This document shows, piece after piece, positions 5,825 to 27,157 of a DNA stretch of 46,925 nt. Made by a program: the position numbers and the translations under genes. The notes under the pieces were generated by a model. It saw only the letters and a list, made by a program, of their open reading frames with translations. It searched no databases and was not told where the DNA came from. How positions within the stretch are numbered: position 1 is the stretch's first letter; each line of letters opens with the position of its first letter. Source of the DNA: an uncultured Rhodospirillales bacterium (lineage in GTDB: Bacteria > Pseudomonadota > Alphaproteobacteria > ATCC43930 > CGMCC-115725); contig CAIXXC010000322.1 in NCBI GenBank assembly GCA_903923205.1, forward strand, positions 1 to 46,925, in the 5' to 3' direction.

Positions 5825-7309
5825 TTATGCTGCCTGAACACGCCCCGCCGTGATCGGGCCCCCGAGCGCAGCGGGGATGAACCCGGCGGTCACAGCCGCG
5901 ACATCAACCAGTTCCCCGTCCTGGACCAGACCATCGGCAACGGCGCGGGCTGCTTCCGCAATGACGGCCTGACGCGAGGCTTCGTCACCACCCGAATAGG
6001 CAGCGGCAAGATCGGCCAGAACAGAGCGCCCGCCCCTGGTGACGAGAGGCGTGCCGCGCATCTTGCGCGCCAGCGCCATTGCCAGAAGTGCTGCCTCTGG
6101 CGACTCATGCTCGACAACAATCTCTATCGCCCGGCCATTGGCAGAATTCGCGCAGACGTAAAGTCCGACCGCACAACCATGGGCAGAGGGGCTGTCGCCG
6201 GATGACCCGAGCAGGGCGATATCTTGGGCGGTGGCAGCGGCTGCCTTCGCCCCAGCGGCATAAAGCGTCGCCTCGGCGCCCTCCGCCACAATCTCGACAC
6301 GGCCGGATTTGAGCGCGCCCAAAGCCGCAGCGGACGCATCTCCCCGGACTGTCACCCGATCGACCGACAATTTACCGAGGGCATTGAAGCTGCGCTCGGC
6401 GCGGCGTCGGTCGATGAAAAGGGTACGAACCATGTTGCCGCAACCGGGATCGCGGATCAGATCGACAAAGCAATCCATTTCGCGGTTGGCTGCGGTCACG
6501 ATGTCCTGATCAAGACCGAGAACGAGGCATTTCAAGATGGCGTTCAGAGCCGGATTCCATCGCAGGTCTTCCGCGCTCAAGCCCGCTTGACGCGACAGGA
6601 TATCGAAAATAGCGGGATCGCCGAGATCGATCCCGGCCTTATCGACCATGAAACCAGGCTGGTCCCAACGGACTTTCGGTTCACCCAAAGCACGAGCCTG
6701 CTCAATCGCAACGGAAACCAACGTATCCGAAGGGGCGACCAGATCGGTAAGGCCGATGGCGACGGCGTCGGCAGCGCCGACGGAATCACCGTGCAGCAAC
6801 ATCGGCAGCGCCTTGGCGACACCGACCAGTCGCGGCAGACGCTGCGTCCCGCCGGCTCCGGGCAAAAGGCCGAGCTTGGCTTCGGGCAACCCTAGTTGAA
6901 CCCCCGGCGCGTCGGAAACGACCCGAAGATGACACCCAAGCGTCAGCTCGAGACCGCCGCCGAGTGCCAAGCCATTAATGGCAGCGACGTAAGGCTTCTT
7001 GGAGGTTTCGAGGCGACGAAACAGCCGCCCCAATCGGCCGCACAGATCGTGCAACTCTGCCTGATTTTGAGTCGTTGCCGCGCGGGTGAAGCCGAGGACC
7101 ATCTCTAGATCCGCACCCACCAGGAAGGTCGACTTGGCCGAGGTAATGACGACCCCTGTGATCTCCGGGTCCGCCGCGACCTGATCGACCAAGCGGTCGA
7201 CGGAGTCGATCAGCGATTCCGAGAACACATTCATCGGGCGACCCGGCATGTCAATGGTCGCCACGAGAATGCCGCTCGCCTCGCGCGAGGTCTTGATATT
7301 CTGGTCCAT
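5825..7309 (-). CDS. Enoyl-CoA hydratase fused to a degenerate 3-hydroxyacyl-CoA dehydrogenase half
   Basis: 494 residues. The first ~260 are a FadB/FadJ-type crotonase domain with both catalytic glutamates in place ([10 protein letters not shown] and LGLPEAKLG) and the [10 protein letters not shown] segment. What follows aligns with the dehydrogenase half of FadJ, but much of that domain (~200 residues in a 714-residue FadJ) is missing. At the expected NAD loop it reads [13 protein letters not shown] with no GxGxxG, and where FadJ has the catalytic-His segment LHFFSP it reads LYVCAN. Downstream, [12 protein letters not shown] and [10 protein letters not shown] still echo the family. Inference: the hydratase is active and the dehydrogenase half is vestigial. 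It could serve as BadK (cyclohexenecarboxyl-CoA hydratase), with BadH supplying the oxidation. Start chosen at ATG 7309 (GGCGGG eight bases upstream); GTG 7318 and ATG 7315 are alternatives. Confidence 0.82.
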
Positions 7310-7328
7310 AAGCATCACCCGCCGCAGC

Positions 7329-8126
7329 TTAACCAGCGAAGTCCTTGAACTTCGGCTTGCGCTTCTCGTTGAAGGCGCGCACGCCCTCTTTCGATTCTTC
7401 GCTCTGGTAGTAGTGCTTTACCGTCTGGATGCCGAGATAGCCGATCCCTCGGATGTTCTCGCTATCGGCATTGAAGGAGCGCTTGGCTATGGCGATGGCA
7501 GAGGGGCTCATCTGATTGATCTCTGACGTCCACTGATCAACCTCGGCGTCGAGTTGATCGTGCGGGACGACTTTATTGACGAGGCCCATCTCAAGCGCTT
7601 CCTTGGCCGTATAACGACGGCAAAGGAACCAGATTTCGCGGGCTTTCTTCTCGCCGACGACGCGCGCAAGATAGGCGGTGCCCCAACCCGGATCGACCGA
7701 GCCGACCTTCGGGCCGACCTGACCGAAGATCGCTTTCTCGGACGCGATGGTAAGGTCGCAGATGGTGGCAAAGACATTGCCGCCACCGATCGCATAGCCC
7801 TGGACACGGGCGATCGATACCTTGCGAAGATCGCGCAACGCTGACTGGCAATCCTCGATCGGCAGGCCGACCGTGCCGCGCGGGCCGTACAGACCATCCT
7901 CAGACAGATGAACCTTCTGGTCCCCGCCCGTGCAGAACGCCTTATCCCCGGCACCGCCAAGGACAACGGCATTGACCGAGCGTTCTTCATCCGCGCGCTT
8001 CAGCGCGTGAATCAGTTCTTCGACCGTCTGCAGCCGGAAGGCATTCATGACGTCGGGGCGATTGATCGTGATATGGACCGCGTTTTCGCGGAGGTCGTAG
8101 ATGATATCCTTGTATTCGCTGCTCAT
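7329..8126 (-). CDS. badI: 2-ketocyclohexanecarboxyl-CoA hydrolase (BadI-like)
   Basis: 265 residues of the crotonase superfamily, close to BadI of Rhodopseudomonas palustris over essentially the whole length. Shared segments include ITINRPDVMNAF, GDKAFCTGGDQ, RVQGYAIGGGNVFATICDL, FGQVGPKVGSVDPGWG, VVGEKKAREIW and EKRKPKF. BadI hydrolyses the ring of 2-ketocyclohexanecarboxyl-CoA to pimelyl-CoA. The related MenB does the reverse kind of C-C chemistry on a naphthoyl ester, and the GDQ/VDPG pattern here favours BadI. The start is ATG 8126 with GAGGA upstream; an in-frame ATG at 8141 lies within the badH stop region and has no better signal. It directly follows badH, so oxidation of the ring alcohol and ring opening are encoded as a coupled pair. 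The actual ring may carry substituents. Confidence 0.85.
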   Translation of the reverse strand: MSSEYKDIIYDLRENAVHITINRPDVMNAFRLQTVEELIHALKRADEERSVNAVVLGGAGDKAFCTGGDQKVHLSEDGLYGPRGTVGLPIEDCQSALRDLRKVSIARVQGYAIGGGNVFATICDLTIASEKAIFGQVGPKVGSVDPGWGTAYLARVVGEKKAREIWFLCRRYTAKEALEMGLVNKVVPHDQLDAEVDQWTSEINQMSPSAIAIAKRSFNADSENIRGIGYLGIQTVKHYYQSEESKEGVRAFNEKRKPKFKDFAG

Positions 8127-8137
8127 TTTATGGGTCC

Positions 8138-8905
8138 TCAACCGTGCATCGAGAGGCCACCGGAGACGCTGATCGTCTGGCCGGTGATGAACTTGGCGTC
8201 GTCGCTGGCAAAGAAAGCGACCATGCCGGGATAGTCTTCGGCCTCGCCGATGCGACCAAGCGGCACGCTGCGCGTCAGGCTGTCGCGGATCTTCTGGCCT
8301 TGCTCACCAGTCCCGGCGAATGCGTCCATCGCGGGGGTGTTGGTCGGACCGGGACAGATCGTGTTGACGAGGACACCGGCACGGGCGACTTCGCGGGCCA
8401 GGGCCTTGGCAAAGGCGATTGTGCCGCCCTTGCAGGCCGAATAGACAACCTCGCCCGTCGAGCCGACACGGCCGGCATCCGACGCGATGAAGATGACGCG
8501 GCCATCCTTGCGGCCAGCCATTCGGCCGGCGATCGCGTGAGTCATATGGATCGGCCCGTAGAGATTGATGTCGATGACCTTCTTCCAGAATTCCGGTGTC
8601 GTCGTGATAAACGAGGTAGGGCGATCCCAACCGGCGTTGTTGACAAGCACATGGACCGGGCCGACTTCGGCCTCGAAGGCATCGACGGCGGCTACAACGG
8701 CCGGATAATCGGTAATATCGACGACCTGGGCGACCGCGCGCCCGCCGGCATCACCGATTTCCTTGACAGTACCGGCGGCAGCCTCACCGTTCAGATCGAA
8801 GACACCAACGATCATGCCCTCGGCACCAAGGCGCAAGGCAATCGCCTTGCCGATCCCGCTTCCACCGCCCGTGACAACGGCCGAACGACCTACCAATCCA
8901 CGCAT
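8138..8905 (-). CDS. badH: 2-hydroxycyclohexanecarboxyl-CoA dehydrogenase (BadH-like SDR)
   Basis: A 255-residue classical SDR: TGGGSGIG (12-19), VFDLN acidic motif favouring NAD, NNAGW, ASDAGRVGS, catalytic YSACK, CPGPTNTP and the C-terminal SVSGGLSMHG. It closely matches BadH of R. palustris, including NNAGWD, SDAxRVGS and VSGGLxMxG, and it sits next to badI. The expected reaction is NAD-dependent oxidation of a 2-hydroxycycloalkane-carboxyl-CoA to the 2-keto ester, the substrate of BadI. Start chosen at ATG 8905, which has a strong GGAGGA nine bases upstream; a start at 8965 would add 20 residues lacking family similarity. It is the first gene of the minus-strand ring-cleavage operon. Confidence 0.87.
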   Translation of the reverse strand: MRGLVGRSAVVTGGGSGIGKAIALRLGAEGMIVGVFDLNGEAAAGTVKEIGDAGGRAVAQVVDITDYPAVVAAVDAFEAEVGPVHVLVNNAGWDRPTSFITTTPEFWKKVIDINLYGPIHMTHAIAGRMAGRKDGRVIFIASDAGRVGSTGEVVYSACKGGTIAFAKALAREVARAGVLVNTICPGPTNTPAMDAFAGTGEQGQKIRDSLTRSVPLGRIGEAEDYPGMVAFFASDDAKFITGQTISVSGGLSMHG

Positions 8906-9213
8906 CAGAATTCCTCCAACAGTTTCTTGCCGCTCAGGCCGGCCCAAGACCGCCCAACCGCGCACAGGAGAGTGGTTACCACCGCCTTTTATTTAAATCT
9001 ACTATAATTCGATGAAATTGCAAGACGACAAATTGATCGGACTGAATGCGCAATCAACGGCCTCGCCGGAACCAGTTACCGGATACTCGTCACCGTCAAG
9101 AGTGACCACTCGAACCGCCAAAGAAATCAGGGAACCTGGCCCAGAACGAAAAACGGCGGCACCCTCGCGGGTACCGCCGTTCGTCGATTGTAATTTAGAT
9201 AAGATCGAGCGTC
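8906..9213. other. Intergenic region: leader of the badH operon and terminator of the PEP-CTERM gene
   Basis: About 308 bases without a supported gene. The left part (8906-9015) is AT-rich and must hold the badH promoter on the minus strand. A TTGTCG/TATAGT pair with 19-base spacing near 9000-9030 is only a weak candidate. The right part holds the hairpin terminator of the secreted-protein gene. Open frames crossing it on the plus strand are antisense artefacts. Confidence 0.5.
9145..9182 (-). terminator. Rho-independent terminator of the PEP-CTERM-type gene
   Basis: On the minus strand a 13-base stem (AACGGCGGTACCC, with one mismatch) with a four-base loop is followed directly by TTTTTCGTTCT. 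It sits 32 bases beyond the stop codon of the secreted-protein gene. It isolates that gene from the badH operon downstream. Confidence 0.85.
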
Positions 9214-10127: not shown

Positions 10128-11138
10128 TCAGGCCAACTTTATCAGTCTCTTACCCATGTTTTCGCCGCGATAAAGCCCGGCGATTGCATCTGGGCAGGAT
10201 TCTATACCGTCGAGAATTTCTTCGCGATAGCCAAGCCGTCCCTCTCGGACGAGACCGGCTAGTCTGGCCACAACATCGATATAACGATGCATGTGGTCGA
10301 ACAGGACAAAGCCTTGAACCATGAGACGCTTGGTCAGAATCGCACGCTCAAGCCTGGGACCCAACGGAGGTGGCTCCCAGACGGGTACCGACGCTGTGCC
10401 GCAGATCACGACGCGTGCATTGACGGCGAGGCAATTGACGACCGCGTCTGAGATCGCCCCGGCTGTGTTATCGAAATAAACGTTGGCCCCGCCCGGGCAG
10501 GCCGACTGAAGCGCGGGCAACAGAGGTGCCTCGGACTTGTAGTCAAGGGCGACATCATAGCCAAAGGCTGCTCGGCACAACGAGACTTTGTCCGGACCAC
10601 CCGCGATCCCAACGGTTCGTGCACCGGCAAGCTTCGCGAGTTGACCGACCGCTGAGCCGACTGACCCAGCTGCGGTCGACACCACGACGGTATCACCCGG
10701 TTTGGGCTGGCCGATATCCATCAATGCCAAATAGGCCGTTACCCCATTGATGCCGAGAATACCGAGACTGAGCGAGATCGGCAGGTCAATCTCCGCGATC
10801 TTGCGTACGATCGAGCTTCCATCGGATACCGCGTATTCCTGCCAGCCGAACCAGCCGATCACCCGGTCGCCGACGGCATAATCAGCATGTTTAGACGACA
10901 CGACCTCGCCCGCCGCCATGGCTCGCATGACCGCACCGATTGCCACGGGCTGGGAATAATTGGCAGCAGCATTGACCCATCCCCGCATCGCGGGTTCGAC
11001 CGACAGGTAGTGATTTCGGACGAGGAACTGTCCGTCCTTCAGGTCGGGGATATTCGCGTCTGACAGGGCGAAGTGCGACGCCTGCGGAATCCCTTCGGGC
11101 CGCGACACGAGGATTACCTGACGGTTACTGCCAATCAT
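10128..11138 (-). CDS. NADP-dependent MDR oxidoreductase (alkenal/curcumin reductase type)
   Basis: 336 residues of the zinc-free medium-chain dehydrogenase/reductase family, close to prostaglandin/leukotriene B4 reductases and YncB/CurA. Visible are NHYLSVEPAMRGW, AAGSVGSAVGQLAKLAGARTVGIAG (Rossmann loop), YFDNTAG, and a C-terminal ENMGKRLIKL. Such enzymes reduce the carbon-carbon double bond of alpha,beta-unsaturated carbonyl compounds with NADPH. It is the last gene of the operon HMGS-like - thiolase - MaoC - MDR, 60 bases after the MaoC gene. A role in reducing an enone or enoyl intermediate of the same pathway is the natural inference. Confidence 0.85.
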   Translation of the reverse strand: MIGSNRQVILVSRPEGIPQASHFALSDANIPDLKDGQFLVRNHYLSVEPAMRGWVNAAANYSQPVAIGAVMRAMAAGEVVSSKHADYAVGDRVIGWFGWQEYAVSDGSSIVRKIAEIDLPISLSLGILGINGVTAYLALMDIGQPKPGDTVVVSTAAGSVGSAVGQLAKLAGARTVGIAGGPDKVSLCRAAFGYDVALDYKSEAPLLPALQSACPGGANVYFDNTAGAISDAVVNCLAVNARVVICGTASVPVWEPPPLGPRLERAILTKRLMVQGFVLFDHMHRYIDVVARLAGLVREGRLGYREEILDGIESCPDAIAGLYRGENMGKRLIKLA

Positions 11139-11199: not shown

Positions 11200-11658
11200 T
11201 CAGGCAGCCGGGCGCTTCAGTTGCAGGCCGGAACGTTTGCACTCGGCGACGAGTTGGCCCTTCTGATTGAAGGCCCGGTGCTTGAAAGTGACAATGCCGG
11301 CGTTGGGGCGCGACTTGCTTGCACGCAGCTCAAGCACCTCGGTCTCGACTGAGACGGTATCGCCGTGGAACAGCGGTGTCGGGAAGCGAACCTCGTCCCA
11401 GCCAAGATTGGCAACAGCCGTCCCCAGCGTCGTATCGCCGACCGAAATTCCGACCATAAGGCCCAAGGTGAAGCAGGAGTTGACGATGCGCTGCCCGAAT
11501 TCGGTGTGCTCGCGGCAATATTCCTCGTCCAGATGCAACTGTGCGGGATTATGGGTGAGCGCGGTGAAGAAGACGTTGTCGGCTTCGGTCACGGTCCGGC
11601 GGATCGCGTGCTTGAATATCTGTCCGACCTGCAATTCGTCAAAATAAAGCCCGGCCAT
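11200..11658 (-). CDS. MaoC-family (R)-specific enoyl-CoA hydratase
   Basis: A 152-residue single hot-dog protein. The catalytic pattern is seen as [11 protein letters not shown] then [13 protein letters not shown], with the Asp and His expected for MaoC hydratases, and later [14 protein letters not shown]. It resembles the MaoC / mesaconyl-CoA hydratase branch. Expected reaction: reversible hydration of a trans-2-enoyl-CoA to an (R)-3-hydroxyacyl-CoA in the cytoplasm. It lies 23 bases after the thiolase. Together with the HSD17B4-type SDR encoded divergently it could supply an (R)-specific beta-oxidation branch next to the (S)-type crotonase of the first operon. Confidence 0.87.
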
Positions 11659-11681: not shown

Positions 11682-12881
11682 TCAGCCGTGTAAGCCGAAA
11701 ACGGAGATCGCAGCAATCCCCTGATAGGGCACGCCGCCAAGATTATGCGTCAGCGCCAGACTCGGCGAGGCAATTTGACGAGCGCCGGCACGGCCAAGCA
11801 ACTGATTATAACATTCATAAGCCATCCGCAGGCCCGAGGCCGCGACGGGATGACCGAAGCATTTCAAGCCGCCATCGATCTGGCAGGGCACCCCGCCATC
11901 GCGATCGAAGAACCCATCGAGCACATCATGGACTGCCCTGCCCTCGCCAGCCACGAACAGGTCCTCCATCGTTACCAGTTCGGTGATGGAGAAGCAGTCG
12001 TGAACCTCCATCATGCTGAGTTGCTTGCGCGGATCAGTGATACCGGCCTCGTGATAGGCCCGGGTCGCTGCCGTGCGGGTATTCCGCACGAAACTGCCAT
12101 CCCAGCTCGCCATGGTCGATTCGATACCGGAGCTGATTGAAAGCTGGATCGCCTTGATCGTCACCAGATCGCGTTTGCCCAGCGCCCGCGCGATTTCCGG
12201 CGTCGTCACAATCGCCGCCGCCGCCCCGTCGCTGACGCCGCAGCAGTCGAACAGGCCTAGCGGTTCCGCAATCATGGGCGCATTGAGAATAGTCTCGATC
12301 GAGACCTCCTTGCGCAGGTGTGCCTTTGGGCTGAGCGTGCCATTCTGATGGCTTTTCCAAGAGACGTGAGCCATCGCCCCTTTCAGATCATCACGGTTGA
12401 TCCCGTGCTTGGCGCGGTAGCCGCCCGCCAGTTGGGCAAAGCCTGCCGGGGCCGAGACCTGTGGCAGCCAGAGATCGTTCAGCGTCCCCTTATAGGGAAT
12501 CGGCAGACCGCCATAGCCCGTATCCTTCAGCTTCTCGACACCGACCGCAAGGGCGATGTCGACAGCACCACTAGCAACCGCATAGGCGGCACCCCGCAGG
12601 GTTTCCGTGCCGGTTGCACACATATTCTCGACGCGGCTGACCGGAATACCGTCGAGCCGGAGCGCGATCGAGGCCGGGATCGCCGAATTGCCGACATTGA
12701 CGCTGTCGAGCGCCGAGCCGAACCAGGCGGCGTCGATCTGCCCGCGTTCGATCCCCGCATCCTTCAAAGCCTCGTCAAAGGCTTCAGCGAGCAGTTCCTC
12801 GGTACCGACATCCCAGCGTTCGCCGAACCGGGCACAGCCCATGCCGAGGATAGCGACCTTGTCCTTGATTCCTGTGGCCAT
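11682..12881 (-). CDS. SCPx-type thiolase (acetyl-CoA acyltransferase family)
   Basis: 399 residues of the sterol-carrier-protein-x / lipid-transfer branch of thiolases. The acyl-accepting Cys is Cys88 in [10 protein letters not shown]. The segments MEVHDCFS and [14 protein letters not shown] carry the His-type catalytic residues of this branch. Such enzymes perform thiolytic or retro-aldol cleavage of bulky or branched 3-ketoacyl (or 3-hydroxyacyl) CoA esters. It is 11 bases downstream of the HMG-CoA-synthase-like/DUF35 gene. Thiolase plus DUF35 pairs often form a complex, as Ltp-type aldolases do with DUF35 partners in steroid side-chain breakdown. Start ATG with an ordinary upstream purine-rich site. 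Confidence 0.87.
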
Positions 12882-12892
12882 GATCCTGTCCT

Positions 12893-14335
12893 TCAGCTCG
12901 CGACCGGGGTCGCTTTCCAGAAATAGCGATTATACCCGCGCTGGCGATCACGCTCCTTGATGCGGAAGACCATGCTCAGCCTGACGCCAACCTCAAGCCC
13001 CTCGGGACCGACATCGACCATCTCCATCATCAGCCGGGCGCCGGAATCGAACTGGGCGAAGCCGACATAAAGCGGCGGTGCCGGGTAATACGAGAGCCAG
13101 TCCGCAGTGTAGGTCAGCACCGCCGCGGATTCCTCGGTCAATGGATGGTCGTCGAACTGCGCGGCCGGGGCGACGCAGGCGGGATTGACGCAATAGGCGA
13201 GCCGAGGAAACTGTACCGTGCCGCAAGCGCGACAGGTCCCGGCAACAAACCCCGCAAGCCTGTCAGCGACGCGATTCTGCGCGCTCAGGGAAGCCTTTTC
13301 GTTCTTCTCGCCACGCATGCCCCAGTCAGGCTTCACCTCACCATAGAAGGAAAGCATGCGCATATAGGAATCGGTGAGGATGCCGCTGCTTTTGGCAGCA
13401 TCGATACCGCCGCTCGGACGCCTCGCCAGAACCTCCTCGGTCACTTCCAGAATCAGGACATCGACGCCCTGGCCAAACCCGATCAGTAGAATTTTCTCAC
13501 CCGGTGTTGCCCGCTCCAGCGCATCCGCGAGCATCAGCAACCCATGGGCGCTGCCTGCGTGCCCGCACCAGTCGCCAAGATTATCGGCAACGATCCCGGC
13601 GAACCCGATGCGCTTGGCAATGGCCTCGGCAGCACCTCGAAACGGCGATGGCAGGATGAAATGGGCGATATCGGCGATACCAAGCCTGGCATTGCCGAGC
13701 GCGGACTGAACCACCTGGGGGATGAGCTTTGCATAGCCTTCCTCGCGGACCCAGCGCTCTTCCCAGAAATAGTCGTAATCGGAATCGGAATCGCGCAGGT
13801 GATCGGCGAACTGGCTGGTGCTGGCGGCGTGGCCAAGGAAGCGCGCGACAATGTTTTCCCGACCCAGCAGGAAGGCCGCAGCCCCCGCACCATAGCCCAA
13901 TTCCTGCGTGCTCGCCGGTTTGGCCTTCGGTCGCTCCGACCCGATCAAGAGGGTGCCTTCGTGACCGCCCGCAAGCGCCTGCGAAAGTCCGGATATCCCG
14001 GCCCGCTGCGAGCCCGCAAGATCGAGCGTGCTAAGGGCAGGAGACAATCCGAGTGCGGCCGCGACGACGGCACCATTTTGATAATCTGCATAGGGCAAGG
14101 TCGTGGATGCCAGCCAAACGCCACGAACTTCCGCCCGCGCGCTTCCAGGCAGGCAATCCCTGGCCGCCTCGACCGCCATCGTGATGGCGTCCTCGTCCCA
14201 ATTGCAAAACGCGCGGGTCCCCTTGCCCTGCGACTTCAATCCCGGGGCCATCCAGGCATTGGCAGCGGCAATGGCGGCGCGCTGCAACCGCAGGCGTGGT
14301 ACATAGGCACCATAGCGCGTAATTCCGAAACTCAT
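12893..14335 (-). CDS. HMG-CoA-synthase-like protein with C-terminal DUF35 zinc-ribbon/OB domain
   Basis: 480 residues. The N-terminal ~330 are a thiolase-fold protein of the HMG-CoA synthase/KAS III type (FGITRYGAYVPRLRL start; ASTTLPYADYQNGA; GDWCGHAGSAHGLL). The C-terminal ~130 form a DUF35 unit with four ribbon cysteines (CRACG and YCVNPAC) followed by an OB-like part. At the position of the nucleophilic Cys the sequence reads AGSQRAG, so Gln110 stands where family members have Cys (compare ACKAGT in archaeal enzymes). It is therefore unlikely to make an acyl-Cys intermediate. First gene of its operon, coupled to the SCPx thiolase by an 11-base gap. Probable role: scaffold or non-canonical (for instance decarboxylating or retro-aldol) partner of that thiolase. 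This is inference. Confidence 0.78.
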   Translation of the reverse strand: MSFGITRYGAYVPRLRLQRAAIAAANAWMAPGLKSQGKGTRAFCNWDEDAITMAVEAARDCLPGSARAEVRGVWLASTTLPYADYQNGAVVAAALGLSPALSTLDLAGSQRAGISGLSQALAGGHEGTLLIGSERPKAKPASTQELGYGAGAAAFLLGRENIVARFLGHAASTSQFADHLRDSDSDYDYFWEERWVREEGYAKLIPQVVQSALGNARLGIADIAHFILPSPFRGAAEAIAKRIGFAGIVADNLGDWCGHAGSAHGLLMLADALERATPGEKILLIGFGQGVDVLILEVTEEVLARRPSGGIDAAKSSGILTDSYMRMLSFYGEVKPDWGMRGEKNEKASLSAQNRVADRLAGFVAGTCRACGTVQFPRLAYCVNPACVAPAAQFDDHPLTEESAAVLTYTADWLSYYPAPPLYVGFAQFDSGARLMMEMVDVGPEGLEVGVRLSMVFRIKERDRQRGYNRYFWKATPVAS

Positions 14336-14589: not shown

Positions 14590-15528
14590 ATGACCGAAGC
14601 GTTCAACACGGCCTCGACAACGTTGCTCGACGGCAAGGTCGTCATTGTCACCGGCGCCGGTGGTGGTGTCGGCGAAGGCATTGCAAAGCTGGCGGCGAGT
14701 CGGGGCGCTCGCGTTGTCGTGAACGATCTTGGCGTTTCGCTTGGTGGCGATGGCGGCGATGCGAGCCCGGCCCGTCGCGTCGCCGACGAGATCGTGGCGG
14801 CAGGCGGCATTGCGATCCCGAGTTTTCGGACCATCTCGGAATGGGACAGCGCGCAGGGCATCATCCAGGATGCCCTTGACGCCTTTGGCCAGATCGATGT
14901 CGTCGTCAACAATGCTGGCATCCTGCGCGACGTATTGTTCCACAAGATGGAACCCAGCGACTGGGACCTCGTCCGGCACGTCAATCTCGATGGCTATTTC
15001 TACGTATCGCGCGCGGCAGCGCCCTATTTCCGTCAGCAGGCGAGCGGGGTCTATCTGCACATGACCTCGACGAGCGGGCTGGTCGGCAATCTCGCCCAAA
15101 CGAACTACGGCGCGGCCAAACTCGGTGTTGCCGGGTTGTCCCGCAACATCGCCATCGACATGGCGCGCTTCAACGTCCGCTCCAACTGCATCGCGCCGTT
15201 CGCTTTCACCCGCATGGTCAATTCGATCCCCGAGACCAACGAGCGCAATCGGAAACGCCAGGAGGTCAATCGCCGACTGGATCCGGCGAAGATTGCCAAT
15301 CTCGCGGTCGCTCTGATGTCTGAGGAGGCCAAGGATATCTCGGGCCAGATTTTCGGTTCACGCAACAACGAGATTTTCATCTTCAGCCAGCCACGCCCTG
15401 TCCGTACCGTTCACACTGCCGAAGGCTGGACTCCGGAATCTTGCCTCGAATCAGCACTGCCGGCCTTGCGCGCAAGCACCTATCCGCTCGACACCTCGGC
15501 GGACGTGTTCACATGGGATCCCATCTGA
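14590..15528 (+). CDS. HSD17B4-type SDR, (R)-3-hydroxyacyl-CoA dehydrogenase
   Basis: 312 residues. It resembles the dehydrogenase domain of peroxisomal multifunctional enzyme 2 (HSD17B4): TGAGGGVG (21-28), VVVNDLGVSLGGDG, NNAGILRD, TSTSGLVGN, catalytic YGAAK and IAPFAFTRM. The expected reaction is NAD-linked oxidation of (R)-3-hydroxyacyl-CoA to the 3-keto ester. ATG 14590 is used because the fold begins right after it; the upstream in-frame ATG at 14524 adds 22 residues of non-conserved sequence. First gene of the plus-strand operon SDR - CoA-transferase-like - BKACE - hydratase 2. With the hydratase-2 protein of the same operon it makes a split version of MFE-2. Confidence 0.87.
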   Translation: MTEAFNTASTTLLDGKVVIVTGAGGGVGEGIAKLAASRGARVVVNDLGVSLGGDGGDASPARRVADEIVAAGGIAIPSFRTISEWDSAQGIIQDALDAFGQIDVVVNNAGILRDVLFHKMEPSDWDLVRHVNLDGYFYVSRAAAPYFRQQASGVYLHMTSTSGLVGNLAQTNYGAAKLGVAGLSRNIAIDMARFNVRSNCIAPFAFTRMVNSIPETNERNRKRQEVNRRLDPAKIANLAVALMSEEAKDISGQIFGSRNNEIFIFSQPRPVRTVHTAEGWTPESCLESALPALRASTYPLDTSADVFTWDPI

Positions 15529-15567: not shown

Positions 15568-16812
15568 ATGAGTTTTGCAGGTTTGACCGACCATTTCGGC
15601 CCCGAGGAAAGCATCTTCGTCAGCGGCTCAAGCGGAGAGCCAATTGGTTTGATGGAAGAGATCCTGGCTTCCGGGGAACAGGGCAAGGGTTGGGAAATTC
15701 TGACCAGCTTCGTCGCCGGCATCAATCCGCTCAAAATCGATGCCGAAAACCCTGGCCCCCGAGTGACGGGACTGTTCATGCAGCCGGGCGTTTCCGCTGC
15801 CCATGCCCTGGGGCGCTTTCGTCATCTGCCGCTGTCTTACAGCGGCTTCCTGCGCCATATCCGCGATCGCGCCAGGGTCGATACCTGTATCGTCCAGGTG
15901 GCTCCCCCCGATGCCCGGGGGCAATGCTCCCTGGGTCCGGCCGTTGAATTCGTCCCCGATATCATGGCCAAGGGCGGTCGCGTGATGGCCGTCATCAATC
16001 CAAATGTGCCCAGGATAGAACGGTCCCTCTCGTTACCCTATTCGGGCTTCGCGGCTATAATCGAGAGCGACGCGCCGATACGAATGCTTGCGAGTGGCGG
16101 CGACGGCGCCGAAGCGGGATTGATCGCCGATCATGTCGCGCCCTTCATTACCGATGGCGCGACCTTGCAGATCGGCATTGGCAAGGTCCCGACCGCGATC
16201 TTCGAACGCCTCCACGACCGTCGCGGCCTGAAACTGCGCTCCGGGTTGCTGTCGGATTCGGTGATCGATCTTGCCGCCTCAGGGGCGCTGGAGCCGGGGT
16301 CGACCATGCTGGGCTGCGTACTGGTCGGCTCGTCGGAATTCTACGCCTGGTGTACCCGCGAGCCGCGCCTTGCCGTCCGCAGCGTCAGCGAGAGCCATGA
16401 TATCGCCCATCTGCTGACAGTGCCGAATTTCGTCGCCATCAACTCGGCACTCGAAGTCGATCTGTTTGGCCAGTGCAATCTTGAGATCGTTGGCGGAAAG
16501 GCGCGCAGCGGTATCGGCGGCGCGCCCGATTTCGCGCTTGCTGGGCATCTGTCGGCCCACGGCCTGAGCGTGGTCGCCTTGCCGGCGGCGATCGGCGGCG
16601 ACAAGGCGTCGCGTATCGTGCCGAAACTATCTGACCCGTCGATCGTCTCTCTGCCGCGCAATGTCGCGGATATCATCGTCACCGAGCATGGCAGCGCCGA
16701 TCTGCGCGGCAAATCGGTGCACGAGCGGGCCGAAGCGCTGATCGCCATCGCGGCCCCGCCCTTTCGGGTGGCGCTATTGGAGGATTGGCGACGGATCTCT
16801 GCGCCCCTATAA
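15568..16812 (+). CDS. CoA-transferase family I (Cat2/4-hydroxybutyrate type) protein lacking the catalytic Glu
   Basis: 414 residues, full length for acetyl-CoA hydrolase / 4-hydroxybutyrate CoA-transferase proteins. Recognisable parts are ATLQIGIGKVP, GIGGAPDF, VALPAAIGGDKASRIVPKL, IIVTEHGSADLRGKS and HERAEALIAIA. The nucleophilic Glu of this family lies in a motif like LGIHSEMISDG (Cat2) or YTEVIQDG (AarC). Here the same stretch reads LKLRSGLLSDS, so Gly226 (codon 16243-16245) replaces it. Without Glu a glutamyl-CoA intermediate cannot form. IpdAB of steroid catabolism is a precedent: a CoA-transferase fold that lost transferase residues and hydrolyses a C-C bond in a ring. A similar non-transferase role is inferred here. 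It is 39 bases after the SDR and 37 before BKACE. Confidence 0.8.
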   Translation: MSFAGLTDHFGPEESIFVSGSSGEPIGLMEEILASGEQGKGWEILTSFVAGINPLKIDAENPGPRVTGLFMQPGVSAAHALGRFRHLPLSYSGFLRHIRDRARVDTCIVQVAPPDARGQCSLGPAVEFVPDIMAKGGRVMAVINPNVPRIERSLSLPYSGFAAIIESDAPIRMLASGGDGAEAGLIADHVAPFITDGATLQIGIGKVPTAIFERLHDRRGLKLRSGLLSDSVIDLAASGALEPGSTMLGCVLVGSSEFYAWCTREPRLAVRSVSESHDIAHLLTVPNFVAINSALEVDLFGQCNLEIVGGKARSGIGGAPDFALAGHLSAHGLSVVALPAAIGGDKASRIVPKLSDPSIVSLPRNVADIIVTEHGSADLRGKSVHERAEALIAIAAPPFRVALLEDWRRISAPL

Positions 16813-16849: not shown

Positions 16850-17782
16850 ATGAAGCGGTCGAAGAAAGTTATCATCACCTGCGCGATTACCGGCTCCGTC
16901 CATACGCCGACGATGTCGCCGCATTTGCCGATCACGCCCGATGATATCGTCCGCGACTCCGTCGCCGCGGCGGAGGCCGGCGCTGCGATGATCCATCTTC
17001 ACGCCCGCAAGCCCGAGGACGGCCGCCCGACGCAAGATCCGAAGATGTACGAGCAGTTCCTGGGACGCATCAAGCAGCAGACCGGCGCGATTCTCAACAT
17101 CACCACCGGCGGTGGGCTTGGCATGTCCATCGAAGAACGCCTTGCCCCCGCCAAGCATTTCGCCCCTGAAGTTGCATCGATGAACATGGGGTCGATCAAC
17201 TTCAACATTTCCGGCTCCGCGGCCAAGATAGAGAAGTTCAAGTACGACTGGGAGCGGCCTTACCTGGAGAGCACCACCGAGTTCATCATGTCGAACACCT
17301 TCGGCCAGATGGAACGCGGCATGCGCGAGTTGGGTGGACAGGGCACGCGGTTCGAATTTGAGTGCTATGATCTCGGCCATCTCTACAATCTTGCCCATTT
17401 CGTCGACCGCAAGATCGTAGAGCCGCCTTTGTTCATCCAGTGCGTCTTCGGTGTCTTGGGCGGCATGGGCGCCGATCCGGAAAACCTGATCCACATGCGC
17501 ACCATGGCTGACAAGCTGTTCGGCGATGGCTACTACCTGTCCGTCCTCGCCGCCGGCCGCCACCAGATGCCGATGATCACGCAAAGCGCGCTGATCGGCG
17601 GCAATTGCCGCGTCGGCTTGGAGGACAGCCTCTATATCAGCAAGGGCACACTCGCAGAGTCCAACGCGCAGCAGGTCGCCAAGATCAAGCACATCCTTGA
17701 GCAATTGTCGCTTGAGGTCGCATCCCCCGATGAGGCGCGCGAAATGATCGCCACAAAGGGTGGCGGTAACGTCAATTTCTAG
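16850..17782 (+). CDS. Beta-keto acid cleavage enzyme (BKACE, Kce-like, DUF849)
   Basis: 310 residues with the signature of 3-keto-5-aminohexanoate cleavage enzyme: TCAITGS at the N-terminus, MIHLHAR with zinc-ligand histidines 49 and 51, TTGGGLGMS, MNMGSINF and the C-terminal CRVGLEDS providing the Glu ligand. BKACE enzymes condense a beta-keto acid with acetyl-CoA and split it to acetoacetate plus a new acyl-CoA. GAGGA lies eight bases before ATG. Its place after a CoA-transferase-family protein and before hydratase 2 suggests it removes two carbons from a free beta-keto acid intermediate of the pathway. The particular keto acid cannot be predicted from sequence. Confidence 0.9.
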   Translation: MKRSKKVIITCAITGSVHTPTMSPHLPITPDDIVRDSVAAAEAGAAMIHLHARKPEDGRPTQDPKMYEQFLGRIKQQTGAILNITTGGGLGMSIEERLAPAKHFAPEVASMNMGSINFNISGSAAKIEKFKYDWERPYLESTTEFIMSNTFGQMERGMRELGGQGTRFEFECYDLGHLYNLAHFVDRKIVEPPLFIQCVFGVLGGMGADPENLIHMRTMADKLFGDGYYLSVLAAGRHQMPMITQSALIGGNCRVGLEDSLYISKGTLAESNAQQVAKIKHILEQLSLEVASPDEAREMIATKGGGNVNF

Positions 17783-17825: not shown

Positions 17826-18668
17826 ATGAATCTCGATGAACTCCGGAACTACCCGTTCCCGGAGCGGACCCAGACCTACACGGAACGGGATACCATTCTC
17901 TACGCGCTCGGGCTCGGCTACGGTGCCGAGCCCGGCGACCCCCGCCATCTGCGCTTCATCCTGGAAGACAGGCTGCTGACGGTACCATCGCTTTGCAACG
18001 TGATCGCGCAACCCTTCATGTGGGTGAAGGAGCCGCGTTTCGAGCTGAATTGGATCAAGCTGCTACATGGCGAGCAAAGCTTCGAGGTCCACCATCCACT
18101 GCCGGCGGCCGGATCATTGATCAGCCGTTGCAGGGTGTTATCAGTCGAGGACAAGGGTGAAGGGCGCGGTGCCGTCATCCATTTTGAAAAGACCCTATAC
18201 GATCCCGCCAACACGCTGATGGCGACGATCCGCAGCGCCTATTTCTTGCGCGGCGATGGCGGCAAGGGAGGCTTTGGCGGACATCCAGCGCCCCCGGCAG
18301 CAATTCCGGAACGGGAACCAGACCGGGCAATCGCAATCGCAACCTTGCCGCAATCGGCACTGATCTATCGGCTGAGCGGTGACGTCAATCCCATCCACGC
18401 CGATCCAGAGGCCGCCCGGAAAGCTGGCTTTGAGCGTCCGATCCTGCATGGTCTTTGTACCCTGGGCGTCGCAACGCGGGCCGCGATCGAGGCCTATGCA
18501 GATGATGCGCCTGAGCGTCTCAGCGGCCTATCCCTTCGCTTCAGTCGCCCGGTCTATCCTGGCGAGACAATCGTCACCGAGTTCTTCGAGACCGGCGACA
18601 AAATTCAGTTTCGTGCCCGTGTCAGGGATGTCGTCGTCCTCGACAGGGGCACGATCCGTTTGAAATAG
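17826..18668 (+). CDS. Hydratase-2 type (double hot-dog) 3-hydroxyacyl-CoA dehydratase
   Basis: 280 residues. The C-terminal half has the hydratase-2 motif GDVNPIHADPEAA with catalytic Asp and His, followed by FERPILHGLCTLG. The N-terminal half is the related hot-dog lobe that forms the substrate pocket (RTQTYTERDTILYALGLGYG; VPSLCNVIAQPFMW). This matches the hydratase domain of peroxisomal MFE-2, which hydrates 2-enoyl-CoA to (R)-3-hydroxyacyl-CoA and accepts bulky and branched acyl chains. AAAGG upstream of ATG. Last gene of the plus-strand operon, ending with a weak hairpin terminator. It complements the HSD17B4-type SDR three genes upstream. Confidence 0.9.
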   Translation: MNLDELRNYPFPERTQTYTERDTILYALGLGYGAEPGDPRHLRFILEDRLLTVPSLCNVIAQPFMWVKEPRFELNWIKLLHGEQSFEVHHPLPAAGSLISRCRVLSVEDKGEGRGAVIHFEKTLYDPANTLMATIRSAYFLRGDGGKGGFGGHPAPPAAIPEREPDRAIAIATLPQSALIYRLSGDVNPIHADPEAARKAGFERPILHGLCTLGVATRAAIEAYADDAPERLSGLSLRFSRPVYPGETIVTEFFETGDKIQFRARVRDVVVLDRGTIRLK

Positions 18669-18688
18669 GCGATTCTAGCGCCTTTTTT
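18668..18688 (+). terminator. Weak hairpin plus T-run after the hydratase-2 gene
   Basis: GGCG and CGCC form a short stem around ATTCTAG, followed by six T residues. It begins at the last base of the hydratase stop codon and covers the stop codon of the convergent lyase gene. The stem is short, so termination may be partial. Confidence 0.45.
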
Positions 18689-19538
18689 CTGCCACATCGA
18701 GCATACGGCGTGCCGCCTTAAGGTGCGGCACGTCGAACATCTTGCCATCTATTGAGACCGAACCGGCACCGCTCTCAAACGCTGCAACCACGCGCTGCGC
18801 GAAGGCAATCTCCGTCGCGGTTGGGGTAAAGGCCTCGTTGATGATCGGGATCTGGTCGGGGTGGATCGCGATCTTGCCGGTAAAGCCATCGTACCGCGCC
18901 ATCTCCGCACTCTTGCGGCAGCCCTCCGGGTCCCGGAAATCAACGAAGACCGTATCCATGACAGCCACTTCCATGGCGTGGGCCGCGAACAGGCACTGGT
19001 TGCGCACCTGATGATAGGCCGGACGCCACGCGCCATCAGCCTGGCGTGGATCGCCCGCACCGATCGCCGAGCTCAGATCTTCCGCACCCCAGATCAGGCC
19101 GACTACGCGCTCCGGCCGCTTCGCCGCGAGACCAGGCATGTTCATGATGATCTGTGGCGTCTCCGTCGCAATCGCCAGGATCTTGATGGAACCCTCCACA
19201 AGACCGGCCATTGATTCGGCCATGCTCAGATAATTCTGGACCGTCTCTACATCCTGACGGTCGCGGATTTTCGGCAGGAGAATCCCTTTGGGTGCCACCT
19301 TGACGACGCAGGCGAGATCGCGAAGCAACTCGCCCGAGGTCAGGTCGTTAACACGGACCCATAGTTCCGACTCAGCGTTGTAGGTTTTGGCGAACTCGAT
19401 CAGCATCTCGCGACCGACGGCCTTGCGCGCGGGGAGCACGGCGTCTTCCAGATCAATGGCCAGTGCATCGGAGCCGGCCGCGACAGCCTTGACGAGCTTG
19501 CGCTCGCTGTCGGCCGGTACAAACAAGAGTGTCCGCAT
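18675..19538 (-). CDS. CitE-type HpcH/HpaI aldolase family CoA-ester lyase
   Basis: 287 residues of the citrate lyase beta / malyl-CoA lyase family: RTLLFVPADSERK, SDALAIDLEDAV, LWVRVND, IATETPQIIMN and GLIWGAEDLSSAIGA, which carry the Arg and the Mg-binding Glu and Asp expected of the family. Reactions in this family cleave or form 3-hydroxy-diacid CoA esters such as malyl-CoA, methylmalyl-CoA or citramalyl-CoA. It is encoded convergently with the hydratase-2 operon, six bases away. GAGGG precedes ATG. In this locus it may cleave a beta-hydroxy dicarboxylyl-CoA left after ring opening, which would deal with branch carbons that block beta-oxidation. That assignment is inference. Confidence 0.85.
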   Translation of the reverse strand: MRTLLFVPADSERKLVKAVAAGSDALAIDLEDAVLPARKAVGREMLIEFAKTYNAESELWVRVNDLTSGELLRDLACVVKVAPKGILLPKIRDRQDVETVQNYLSMAESMAGLVEGSIKILAIATETPQIIMNMPGLAAKRPERVVGLIWGAEDLSSAIGAGDPRQADGAWRPAYHQVRNQCLFAAHAMEVAVMDTVFVDFRDPEGCRKSAEMARYDGFTGKIAIHPDQIPIINEAFTPTATEIAFAQRVVAAFESGAGSVSIDGKMFDVPHLKAARRMLDVAEKRR

Positions 19539-19885
19539 TATTCCCTCGGAAATTATCTGGTTGTCAGTGCGGCGCCAGTATTACCCTCACCCGAGCGAGA
19601 GGGGTATGGGGTTCTTTCGCCGACACCGACGGAAGAAGTGGCGCGCGGTGGTTTGGAGAGCATTTCAACATTCCCGAGCGCAGAACGTCGAAAATGACCG
19701 GCTTCGCCCGCGCGCACTGTGGCTTCGGTATCCACGACGACGAATTTCGGCGTTCCTTCAATCGATTGCCGATTGAAACGCTTGCCCCACGGGACATCTT
19801 TGCCAGACAATGCAGGTGTGACGATCGGTACAGACGCGCGCCTGCGTCACGCTTAGGAAACGGACATGATCCTCGGGGCCAGGCA
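19539..19885. other. Divergent leader region between the lyase gene and divL
   Basis: 347 bases. It is open in the divL frame but shows no coding character: the translated sequence is Arg/Cys-rich and unlike any protein I know. It should contain promoters for both the CitE-type lyase (minus) and divL (plus). A well-spaced AGGAAACGG before ATG 19866 opens a 12-codon frame that runs over the divL start and stops at 19904. This could be a small leader peptide, or a sign that a one-base error hides a divL start there. Confidence 0.45.
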
Positions 19886-22213
19886 TTGCTCTTCCAAGGT
19901 CTAAGCATCGCCCTCGCCCTGGGGCTGCTGGTGCTGATGTCCGCGCTGACAAGGGCGCGGCGCCGGTACAAGGACGCCCGCGCTCAAGCCGTCTTGCTGA
20001 CAACCGTCGTCGGAACGGTTCCGGGTTGTTTTTATCAGATCCAAGGAGCCCAGGCACGGCGCGTCGATCGCACGCATGGCAGCAGCCTATGGCCGACGGA
20101 CCTGCATGATCTGATCGTGCACCTCGACCACACGGATGAGGTGGTATTGGAACATGCCATGCTGGCGCTCAGCCGCGATGGCCAAAGCTTTGCACTCCGC
20201 TTCCCATGCCGGTGGGGCCGAACGGATAACGAACCATCATTATTGCTCGATATCACTGGCAATCGTGTCACCCCGGCCCTTGATCGACTTCATCACGAGC
20301 GTGCGTCCACGATAGGCATTAGCAGCTGGATCGATCTCATCTGGGTATCGGATGTCTCGGATCGCGCTGCGGCCTCGGCCGAGAGCAGCAAGATGGCTGC
20401 GGAACTAAGGCGCTTGAAGACCACTGTAGACCATGTGCCACTGACGCTCTGGTGGCGCGATAGCGACCTGAAGATCATTGACCGAAACCGATCGGAGGCC
20501 GAGGTCCTGCCGCTCACCGTGCTGGCCGAACCTCTGGCGCGCGCGGCCGCCGCGGATGGCCCCGAAGCGGTCGAGCGTAAGATCGTGGCATCCCCCTTCA
20601 ACGCCAATTCCAGTATCGAACTGCGGGAAATCTCTTTGCTCGGTGGTGAGCTTCTTGGCATTGCCGTCGATCGCCGCGAAGTAGATGGCGTCCAGGCCGA
20701 GCTGGATCGTCTGATTTTGGGTCACCGGCAGGTTCTGGAAACTGTCAGCACGGCGATCGCGATCTTTGGCCCCGATACCCACCTGATGTTCTACAATTCG
20801 GCCTTCACGGTGCTCTGGGGGCTAGAGAGAGAGTACCTCAACACAGAACCGAGTCTCGCGAACCTGCTCGATACCCTGCGCGAGAACCGGACGTTGCCGG
20901 AATATGCGGACTATCGGCAGTTCAAGGCCGATCAGGCCGCGTTGGTTTCCACCCTCAAGTCCCCGCAACAGGAATTGATGCACCTGCCGGACGGCAGGAC
21001 CATCGACTGCAAGATCAGCCGTCATCCCTTCGGGGGCTTGACCTTCATTTATGATGACGTGACCGGCAGTCTCGACCTTGAGCGCTCCTACAACACGCTG
21101 ATCGCGGTGCAACGCGAGACGATCGATAATCTATTCGAGGGGATCGCAGTGTTCGGCAGTGATGGTCGCCTGACCCTCTGGAATCCTGCCTTTGCCGAGA
21201 CCTGGGGCGTCAGCGCGGAAGACCTTGAATCACGCCCCCATATCACCGCTCTGGTCGATCGGGCGCGCGCACTCTTCGACCTCGGCACAGGTTGGGACAG
21301 CGTCCGTAACGGATTGATCCTGCCGGTCACGTCTTATGCCGCCCATACCAGCCAGCTCGAACGCCGTGATGGCAGAGTATTCAAGGTCCATGGCGTCCCA
21401 CTACCGGACGGCAACATGCTGATGACCTACCAGGACACGACCGACTCATACCGCGTCCGGCGCGCGCTTGAGGACCGCTATGCGGCTCTCGAGGAGGCTG
21501 CCAAGCTCAAGAGCGAGTTCGTCGCCAATGTTTCCTATGAACTGCGGACGCCGCTTAACGCGATTATCGGCTTTGCTGAAATCCTCACCAACCAGTTTTT
21601 CGGAGCGCTGAACGAGCGCCAACTCGACTATAGTCATGGTATCCTGGATGGCTCACATCGGCTCCTTGCGCTGATCAACGACGTGCTTGATCTGGCGACG
21701 ATCGAAAGTGGCCGTATGGCGCTTGATATTGCGCCGATAGACGTCCACGCGATGCTGGCCGGAATATTGTCGCTGACGCGGGAGCGGATCGGGGCCTTGC
21801 CGATTGAGGTCGATTTCGACTGCCCGACAGATATCGGGATGATCGAGGGCGATGAGCGGAGGGTCCGTCAGGTCCTGTTCAACCTGATCTCCAATGCGCT
21901 GAAATTCACGCCTAAGACAGGCCTGATCTCGATCTCCGCCAAGAGAGTCGATGACGAGATCGGCATCACCATTGCCGATAACGGGATCGGTATCCCACGC
22001 GAGGATCAAAAGCGCGTTTTCGAGAAGTTCGAACGCAGCCGCAGCCGGGGCGAGCAGTCTGGACCGGGCCTTGGTCTACCCCTGGTCAAAAGCTTCGTCG
22101 AACTCCATGGCGGTCATATCGATCTCGTCTCAGACCCGGGCCAAGGTACCGCGATAACCTGCTGGCTCCCAATCAACCATCCGGCTGACGTCGAGGAAAT
22201 GCCCGAAAACTAA
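19886..22213 (+). CDS. divL: DivL-like tyrosine pseudo-histidine kinase, cell-cycle regulator
   Basis: From the TTG start the protein is 775 residues, close to Caulobacter DivL (769). There is an N-terminal membrane segment (GLSIALALGLLVLM), several PAS-like modules (FGPDTHLMFYNSAF; IAVFGSDGRLTLWNPAF), then a HisKA domain reading EFVANVSYELRTPLNAI. Tyr551 stands exactly where kinases have the phospho-accepting His, as Tyr550 does in DivL. The ATPase domain is intact: NLISNALKFTP, DNGIGIP, GPGLGLPLVKSF. DivL sits at the inner membrane, senses DivK and tunes the CckA-ChpT-CtrA relay. Longer starts at 19529 exist but add 119 residues with no protein-like character. The last codons and stop lie inside a terminator hairpin. 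The genomic island begins immediately after it. Confidence 0.87.
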   Translation: MLFQGLSIALALGLLVLMSALTRARRRYKDARAQAVLLTTVVGTVPGCFYQIQGAQARRVDRTHGSSLWPTDLHDLIVHLDHTDEVVLEHAMLALSRDGQSFALRFPCRWGRTDNEPSLLLDITGNRVTPALDRLHHERASTIGISSWIDLIWVSDVSDRAAASAESSKMAAELRRLKTTVDHVPLTLWWRDSDLKIIDRNRSEAEVLPLTVLAEPLARAAAADGPEAVERKIVASPFNANSSIELREISLLGGELLGIAVDRREVDGVQAELDRLILGHRQVLETVSTAIAIFGPDTHLMFYNSAFTVLWGLEREYLNTEPSLANLLDTLRENRTLPEYADYRQFKADQAALVSTLKSPQQELMHLPDGRTIDCKISRHPFGGLTFIYDDVTGSLDLERSYNTLIAVQRETIDNLFEGIAVFGSDGRLTLWNPAFAETWGVSAEDLESRPHITALVDRARALFDLGTGWDSVRNGLILPVTSYAAHTSQLERRDGRVFKVHGVPLPDGNMLMTYQDTTDSYRVRRALEDRYAALEEAAKLKSEFVANVSYELRTPLNAIIGFAEILTNQFFGALNERQLDYSHGILDGSHRLLALINDVLDLATIESGRMALDIAPIDVHAMLAGILSLTRERIGALPIEVDFDCPTDIGMIEGDERRVRQVLFNLISNALKFTPKTGLISISAKRVDDEIGITIADNGIGIPREDQKRVFEKFERSRSRGEQSGPGLGLPLVKSFVELHGGHIDLVSDPGQGTAITCWLPINHPADVEEMPEN

Positions 22214-22271: not shown

Positions 22272-22841
22272 ATGACCGAAACGCACCCTCAAAATCGACG
22301 CCTTGGCTATGCCCGCGTCAGCACCTACGGCCAGACGCTCGACGCTCAGCTTGAGCAGTTGAAGACGGAGGGGTGCGCCAAGATTTACCGCGAGAAGGCG
22401 AGCGGGGCGAAAGCAGACCGCCGCGAGCTTCTGCGGATGTTGAAAGACCTGAGCCCCGGCGACGTGGTGACGGTGACGCGAATTGATCGCCTCGCCCGCT
22501 CGACCTTCGACCTCTTCGCGATCGTCAAGCAGATCGTGGACGCTGGCGGCCAGTTCCGATCGCTGGCCGAGCCTTGGGCGAACACATCCACCAGCACCGG
22601 CCGCCTGATGATCGCTGTGCTTGGCGGCATGGCAGACGTAGAGCGCGACCTTATCCGCACGCGCACCGCCGAGGGACGGAGCCGCGCCAAGGCGCGAGGG
22701 CAGCACATGGGCCGCCCCCCTGCTCTCACCCCTGACCAGCAGGCCGAGGCCAGGCAGCGCCGCGCCGAAGGTGCGACGCTCAAGGAGTTAGCGCAGAGCT
22801 ACAACGTCGGCCGGGCGACGATTTCGAGGCTGGCAGTATGA
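22272..22841 (+). CDS. Serine recombinase (resolvase/invertase family)
   Basis: 189 residues. The catalytic domain starts LGYARVSTYGQTLDAQ with the nucleophilic Ser, followed by DRLARSTFDLF and GGMADVERDLIRTRTAEG (the E-helix). After GRPPAL comes a short helix-turn-helix (LKELAQSYNVGRATISRL) that would bind the crossover site. Size and layout match Tn3-type resolvases and Hin-type invertases. The stop TGA overlaps the ATG of the following HEPN gene (ATGA), so translation is coupled. No transposase and no obvious inverted site were seen. It could be a remnant of the element that brought the island, or a working part of a resolvase-HEPN unit. Confidence 0.92.
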   Translation: MTETHPQNRRLGYARVSTYGQTLDAQLEQLKTEGCAKIYREKASGAKADRRELLRMLKDLSPGDVVTVTRIDRLARSTFDLFAIVKQIVDAGGQFRSLAEPWANTSTSTGRLMIAVLGGMADVERDLIRTRTAEGRSRAKARGQHMGRPPALTPDQQAEARQRRAEGATLKELAQSYNVGRATISRLAV

Positions 22842-26022: not shown

Positions 26023-26025
26023 GGT

Positions 26026-26979: not shown

Positions 26980-27157
26980 GTTTTGACTCTCGATAAAGTT
27001 CCCACATCTCAGCCAGCAGGCCATTCAGAGGAATTTGACGCCGCGCCGCCTCAACCTTGATCGCCTTGGCGATAGGTTTCGGCATCCGGAAACCGATGAT
27101 TTGAGATTCACCCGTCTCTGTCCGTCGTGTCGTCTTCTTCTCTTTCAGTTCGCCCAT
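26969..27157 (-). CDS. Small ribbon-helix-helix-like protein, candidate controller of the restriction operon
   Basis: 62 residues from ATG 27157. After a charged N-terminus (MGELKEKKTTRR) comes IIGFRMPKPIAKAIKVEAARRQIPLNGLLAEMWELY, a strand followed by two helices as in CopG/Arc-type DNA-binding proteins. ATG 27157 is chosen because AGGGG lies eight bases upstream; an upstream ATG at 27190 would translate the two GTCGAC boxes and lacks that signal. It is the first gene of the operon and overlaps the endonuclease start. It probably acts as the regulator or anti-toxin-like partner of the restriction enzyme. The fold assignment is by pattern only. Confidence 0.62.
   Translation of the reverse strand: MGELKEKKTTRRTETGESQIIGFRMPKPIAKAIKVEAARRQIPLNGLLAEMWELYRESKRAS

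Follow-up and report, generated by a model that had tools for sequence, protein, structure and literature searches.

A clade of Cat1-type CoA-transferase-fold proteins with glycine for the catalytic glutamate and histidine for its asparagine partner: candidate intramolecular CoA transferases

The window analysed here (positions 1 to 46,925 of contig CAIXXC010000322.1, assembly GCA_903923205.1, from an uncultured Rhodospirillales bacterium; 46,925 nucleotides in all) carries, within a cluster of acyl-CoA catabolic genes, an intact open reading frame (ORF) for a protein with the predicted fold of the Cat1/4-hydroxybutyrate (4HB) CoA-transferases. Alignment and modelling place a glycine, Gly226, in this protein at the position of the nucleophilic glutamate. 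A preliminary description of the sequence had reported a CoA-transferase-fold protein without its catalytic Glu, and this observation is right and larger than claimed: judged from its relatives, the protein belongs to a large clade and is not a single odd enzyme. The features of the protein are as follows.

15568..16812, forward strand: Glu-less Cat1/4HB-type CoA-transferase-fold protein, 414 amino acids (PF13336, 142.9 bits; closest PDB matches are 4HB CoA-transferases)
16243..16245, forward strand: codon GGG of Gly226, at the position of the nucleophilic Glu, AarC Glu294 (alignment)
16396..16398, forward strand: codon of His277, at the position of the Glu-positioning Asn, AarC Asn347 (alignment; role of Asn347 from PMC4876117)
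16516..16521, forward strand: codons of Gly317-Gly318, external oxyanion hole, kept, Gly318 being AarC Gly388 (alignment; role from PMC4876117)
16684..16686, forward strand: codon of Glu373, AarC Glu435, invariant in Gly and Glu proteins (alignment)

The assignment of the fold and of the active-site column rests on several comparisons. A phmmer search of the PDB ranks 4HB CoA-transferases first, and every printed alignment sets RSGLLSDS on H[TS]E[LM][IF][ST]D. More specifically, the motif that contains Gly226 (LRSGLLSDS) aligns without a local gap to HTELFSD (2oas), HTEMISD (9vag), HTEMFSD (3eh7) and HSEMISD (3gk7). The AlphaFold2 model of the 414-residue protein (mean pLDDT 96.1, pTM 0.93) superimposes on 2oas with a Z score of 49.4 and a root-mean-square deviation of 2.2 over 412 residues, and on 3gk7 with a Z score of 47.1. 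The likeness to 4HB CoA-transferases (2oas, 3gk7 AbfT, 3eh7, 3d3u) extends over the full length (Z 44-49) and includes the GxG and GGxxDF motifs and the C-terminal domain PF13336; the window protein differs from them in having Gly for Glu, His for Asn and an acyl-CoA catabolic context. The VIA list holds class I relatives only (4HB, AarC-type, citrate lyase alpha, malonate decarboxylase alpha and SCOT-type); IpdAB is not among its rows, though this rules out nothing. With an AarC-type relative (L170) as a bridge, and residues counted on the printed alignment, the Gly226 column corresponds to Glu294 of the succinyl-CoA:acetate CoA-transferase AarC and His277 to its Asn347. AarC shares the superfamily fold, and the equivalents of its Gly388 and Glu435 are kept in the window protein, whereas Glu294 and Asn347 are both replaced.

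These comparisons confirm the ORF, its coordinates, the motif RSGLLSDS and the placement of Gly226 at the nucleophile position as first described. The accompanying statement that the flanking residues and the rest of the fold are kept stands only in part. The usual His of the motif is Arg224 here, and the change from Asn to His277, 51 residues downstream of Gly226, was overlooked.

The relatives were gathered in three sets: alphaproteobacterial relatives, then a scan of genome contigs with a four-sequence profile in which the motif lay outside the search patterns, then 398 Pseudomonadota genomes that were drawn as a wider sample. Nearly all of the first alphaproteobacterial relatives have Gly at the nucleophile column, as do 80 of 80 loci in the genome-contig scan. 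Across 174 aligned relatives the column holds G in 118, E in 54 and D in 2; the targeted scan and the wider sample are mixed in these counts, and the ratio of G to E is thus no census. When Gly and Glu proteins are compared column by column, column 277 is the next most different conserved column. It is His in 116 of the 118 Gly proteins and Asn in one of them, while Asn occupies it in 52 of the 56 Glu/Asp proteins and His in none. The two Gly proteins without His277, L033 (Tyr277) and L019 (Asn277), are natural test cases for the coupling of the two positions. In AarC the carboxamide of Asn347 has two roles: it stabilises the internal oxyanion, and it orients and polarises Glu294 (PMC4876117). 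In the Gly set the nucleophile and its partner have thus been switched together. The sequences thus delineate a large and previously unstudied bacterial CoA-transferase branch in which Gly stands for Glu and, almost always, His for Asn.

The side of the active site that handles CoA is retained in the Gly set, including the GxG loop, GGxxDF with an invariant Gly318, and Glu373. Purifying selection is evident in close gene pairs across the set (dN/dS 0.10-0.26), and its members are therefore working proteins. A chance change or sequencing slip at Gly226 is ruled out by the Gly found in 118 relatives. Two acids are conserved in the Gly set, E24 (89%) and E306 (93%). A shifted nucleophile is not favoured: E24 is the only acid conserved specifically in this set, position 306 being E or D in both sets, and Glu373, invariant in Gly and Glu proteins alike, is no replacement nucleophile.

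The number of origins of the Gly/His pair is read differently by different trees. A quick tree of 174 rows sets Gly and Glu apart by one change with support of 82. A more careful tree, built from 71 rows after the trait columns had been taken out, requires three changes, and a single change occurs in 0 of 200 bootstrap trees; forcing one Gly clade on the same 71 rows is not rejected by the approximately unbiased (AU) test (p 0.49). Glu is likely ancestral, because the AarC-type outgroup has Glu/Asn. These trees leave room for a single switch with later complexity or for more than one gain of the pair. If the separate changes (two or three) are real, the Gly/His pair arose repeatedly as a unit.

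The genes around the CoA-transferase-like gene, listed below, bear out the earlier description of an acyl-CoA catabolic cluster with a beta-keto acid cleavage enzyme (BKACE), a hydratase 2 and a short-chain dehydrogenase/reductase (SDR).

827-2380, reverse strand: acyl-CoA ligase
2417-3304, reverse strand: 2,4-dienoyl-CoA reductase-like SDR
3411-4577 and 4590-5756, reverse strand: two acyl-CoA dehydrogenases
5825..7318, reverse strand: crotonase/FadJ-type protein
7329..8141, reverse strand: BadI-like 2-ketocyclohexanecarboxyl-CoA hydrolase, ring opening (TIGR03210, 416 bits, cut-off 467.6)
8138..8965, reverse strand: BadH-like 2-hydroxycyclohexanecarboxyl-CoA dehydrogenase (TIGR03206, 314 bits, cut-off 431)
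10128..11138, reverse strand: CurA-like alkene reductase (NF058644, 348 bits, below cut-off 440)
11200..11658, reverse strand: MaoC hydratase, RipB/mesaconyl-CoA hydratase-like
11682..12881, reverse strand: thiolase, Thiolase_C_1 type (NF004810, 652 bits, cut-off 403)
12893..14335, reverse strand: HMGS-like (PhlA-like) protein fused to a ChsH2-like OB domain
14590..15528, forward strand: SDR oxidoreductase, directly upstream of the CoA-transferase-like gene
16850..17782, forward strand: BKACE, directly downstream (PF05853, 350 bits; NF053538, 508 bits, cut-off 430)
17826..18668, forward strand: MaoC / MFE-2 hydratase 2
18675..19538, reverse strand: CitE-like CoA-ester lyase (PF03328; citE/RipC-like below cut-off)

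This gene content suggests degradation of an alicyclic compound by the BadH/BadI type of route, monoterpene-like in character; the BadH and BadI scores do not reach the curated cut-offs, which could be expected if these enzymes act on a substituted ring. The HMGS-like fusion and the adjacent thiolase, which keeps NMCATG, look like a PhlACB-type C-C cleaving module, and the closest solved relatives of the fusion include PhlA of the DAPG acyltransferase complex. No Cys was found in the HMGS-nucleophile region of the fusion (12893-14335), nor is a Cys conserved in that region among 23 of its relatives, two of which (L055 and L079) carry a single Cys, though not at the same place. The BKACE (16850-17782) passes the 3,5-dioxohexanoate equivalog NF053538 outside a phloroglucinol context, and this equivalog may take in too much. 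Among solved structures 3e02, deposited as an uncharacterised DUF849 protein, is the closest. The phloroglucinol pathway that the equivalog suggests is not favoured: BadH/BadI and beta-oxidation genes surround the BKACE, and of the scanned families none was recognised as belonging to phloroglucinol degradation.

A similar setting recurs around relatives. Gene-context counts were made for 76 Gly loci and 16 Glu loci, some of them on short contigs. An acyl-CoA dehydrogenase lies near 42 of the 76 Gly loci versus 0 of the 16 Glu loci, and a separate activator (AMP ligase or family III CoA-transferase) near 39 and 2, respectively. CitE and MaoC occur together at 18/76 Gly loci and an HMGS-like gene at 25/76, as against 0/16 Glu loci in both cases; most Gly loci are without BKACE. 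Genes of the window recur in relatives, with identities of up to 83% for the thiolase, up to 81% for the BadI-like protein and up to about 80% for the dehydrogenases, and an operon of this kind is also present at one locus of the deeper Gly group. A compact set of MaoC, CoA-ester lyase, Gly-type gene and BKACE is found in an annotated Methylobacterium plasmid record, and similar compact sets are found in plasmid records of Diaphorobacter, Azoarcus KH32C and Novosphingobium. At a Rhodococcus plasmid locus (L208) a related protein shares an operon with an adenylate-forming ligase, a thiolase, a Zn-ribbon OB protein and family III CoA transferases, and the context may thus reach the Actinomycetota.

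Published monoterpene pathways offer a further point of comparison. The mrc genes of Castellaniella defragrans, with BadH/BadI-like MrcD/MrcE, belong to a monoterpene island that also holds the hypothetical protein CDM25298, the acetyl-CoA acetyltransferase CDM25299, an acetyl-CoA hydrolase/transferase of unassigned role (CDM25300) and two ETF genes (PMC4109377). A Gly locus from this same species (L083) has the order HMGS-like gene, thiolase, Gly-type protein, ETF, which matches CDM25298-CDM25302. A 2025 limonene study proposes 5-isopropenylpimeloyl-CoA, 3-isopropenylglutaryl-CoA and then cleavage of 3-hydroxy-3-isopropenylglutaryl-CoA, and in the equivalent limonene operon LrcI is an expressed CoA transferase of unassigned role (PMC12583861).

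The nearest precedent for a Glu-less enzyme of this kind is ThnP (N47_E41340) from anaerobic naphthalene degradation, a member of the Cat1 subgroup of class I in which Glu is replaced by Gly238 and for which intramolecular CoA transfer within one dicarboxylic acid has been measured, an internal anhydride being one mechanism offered by its authors (PMC11659651). The operon of thnP also encodes acyl-CoA dehydrogenases, hydratases, a lyase and thiolases, like the surroundings of the window gene; organism and substrate differ. The thn pathway proceeds by ring hydrolysis, CoA transfer, acyl-CoA dehydrogenase, hydration to a tertiary alcohol, lyase and thiolase, and the product of ThnP is a substituted glutaryl-CoA (PMC12016498). 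The window encodes the same kinds of step. Given the ThnP precedent and this shared pathway logic, it is proposed that the second carboxylate of the substrate itself takes the place of the lost Glu, and that the window protein may be a Cat1-fold intramolecular CoA transferase, a reading given an even chance of being correct. Also in its favour count the Gly226/His277 double switch beside a retained CoA side, the contrast in gene context between Gly and Glu loci, the similar operon in the deeper Gly group, the homologues in known monoterpene degraders and the dN/dS values. The proposed reaction type, intramolecular CoA transfer, is also that of a CoA transferase with the unrelated family III fold. 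In its own pathway that enzyme precedes a hydratase and a CitE-like lyase.

Under this proposal, the substrate would be the mono-CoA ester of a 1,4- or 1,5-dicarboxylic acid that arises once the ring is open; a 3-substituted glutaryl-CoA, perhaps 3-isopropenylglutaryl-CoA, is an example. Binding of the ester would follow ordinary CoA-transferases, its thioester oxygen lying in the external oxyanion hole that has been kept (Gly318), and the free carboxylate would fill the space left by the Glu side chain at Gly226. His277, in place of the Glu-positioning Asn, would hold or polarise this carboxylate, which would attack the thioester to give a cyclic anhydride. Re-attack of the CoA thiolate on the other carbonyl would then leave CoA on the other carboxyl, the presumed direction of transfer, with no external donor or acceptor, and would give a product on which the cluster's acyl-CoA dehydrogenase, hydratase and C-C lyase could act. 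That the Gly/His branch as a whole shifts CoA on diacids as a general step of alicyclic and terpenoid degradation, with the substrate carboxylate doing the chemistry, is a tentative extension that falls somewhat short of an even chance.

Several observations weigh against the proposal. ThnP shares 46% identity with a Porphyromonas gingivalis CoA-transferase (PMC11659651), to which it is apparently closer; this suggests another branch, and the Glu-to-Gly change may be convergent. The acid suggested for ThnP, E269, falls near Cys250 of the window protein when counted from published numbers, the clade mostly has Gly there, and the two enzymes may differ. A pathway for 3-isopropenylglutaryl-CoA can be drawn without a CoA shift. 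Finally, 18 of the 76 Gly loci lack any acyl-CoA gene searched for and 51 of the 76 lack the HMGS-like gene, some contigs being short.

Other reactions of the Glu-less fold are established, and because IpdAB and AibA/AibB show them, confidence in intramolecular transfer is set no higher than even. In IpdAB, also of class I fold, Gly57beta stands in place of the Glu; this enzyme displays no transferase activity and opens the ring of COCHEA-CoA in steroid degradation (PMC5380842). The preliminary description cited it correctly as a precedent and suggested a C-C hydrolase or retro-Claisen enzyme. In such an enzyme the vacated pocket would hold water or a beta-diketone, and the nearly invariant His277 could serve as base. 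As the leading reading this is not supported: ThnP is nearer, IpdAB is a two-subunit enzyme of the glutaconate CoA-transferase (GCT) type whereas the window protein is a single 4HB-type chain, and a further C-C hydrolase is not obviously needed beside the BadI-like ring hydrolase, PhlACB-like module, BKACE and CitE-like lyase already encoded. It is possible and second best, with a rather low probability. A decarboxylase of 3-substituted glutaconyl-CoA appears improbable. Such a compound lies on the pathway suggested for the window, and AibA/AibB, a class I enzyme that has lost its Glu, does act on 3-methylglutaconyl-CoA; it belongs to the GCT branch and has Cys56B rather than Gly at this position (PMC7756340), and the hydratase, lyase and BKACE of the window point to hydration and C-C cleavage instead.

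An acyl-CoA thioesterase, in which His277 would activate water and free an acid such as a beta-keto acid for BKACE, is slightly less probable than the C-C hydrolase. Relatives are annotated as acetyl-CoA hydrolase/transferase, the neighbouring BKACE uses free beta-keto acids, and AarC-N347A indicates that water can enter the site once the active-site polar group is removed (PMC4876117). Hydrolysis would, however, be wasteful where the cluster already spends a ligase, BKACE is absent from most Gly loci, and ThnP, with the same substitution, caused no observable mass change of the CoA ester when added alone and is hence no hydrolase. An ordinary intermolecular CoA transferase with another nucleophile could draw on the retained CoA-binding and external oxyanion features and on the conserved acids E24 and E306. 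This is as improbable as the decarboxylase, in that AarC-E294A is described as inactive (PMC4876117), neither E373, which the Glu proteins share, nor position 306, Asp/Glu in both sets, is a new nucleophile, and separate activating enzymes are present. The loss of the nucleophile would also suit a non-catalytic pseudoenzyme or CoA-ester sensor, which is the least probable reading and very unlikely; purifying selection and a second change to His that is precise and runs through the clade indicate instead an active site that was altered but kept.

ThnP already shows this kind of enzyme, and what is new is a clade-sized variant with a diagnostic second residue. Members of the branch are annotated as acetyl-CoA hydrolases/transferases, although most of them probably do not have that activity, and the two-residue signature Gly226/His277 would allow immediate re-annotation of genomes. 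It would also suggest a candidate role for genes without assignment in limonene and monoterpene degradation (CDM25300 type and perhaps LrcI). It would also supply many natural examples on which to test how an enzyme nucleophile can be exchanged for one from the substrate.

Beyond the catabolic genes, a large histidine-kinase-like ORF (19529-22213, forward strand) lies next to the CitE-like gene and may encode a sensor that serves the cluster. A XamI-type restriction endonuclease lies beside an Eco57I-like methylase at the edge of the cluster (24442-27024, reverse strand), with a resolvase-like gene nearby (22272-22841).
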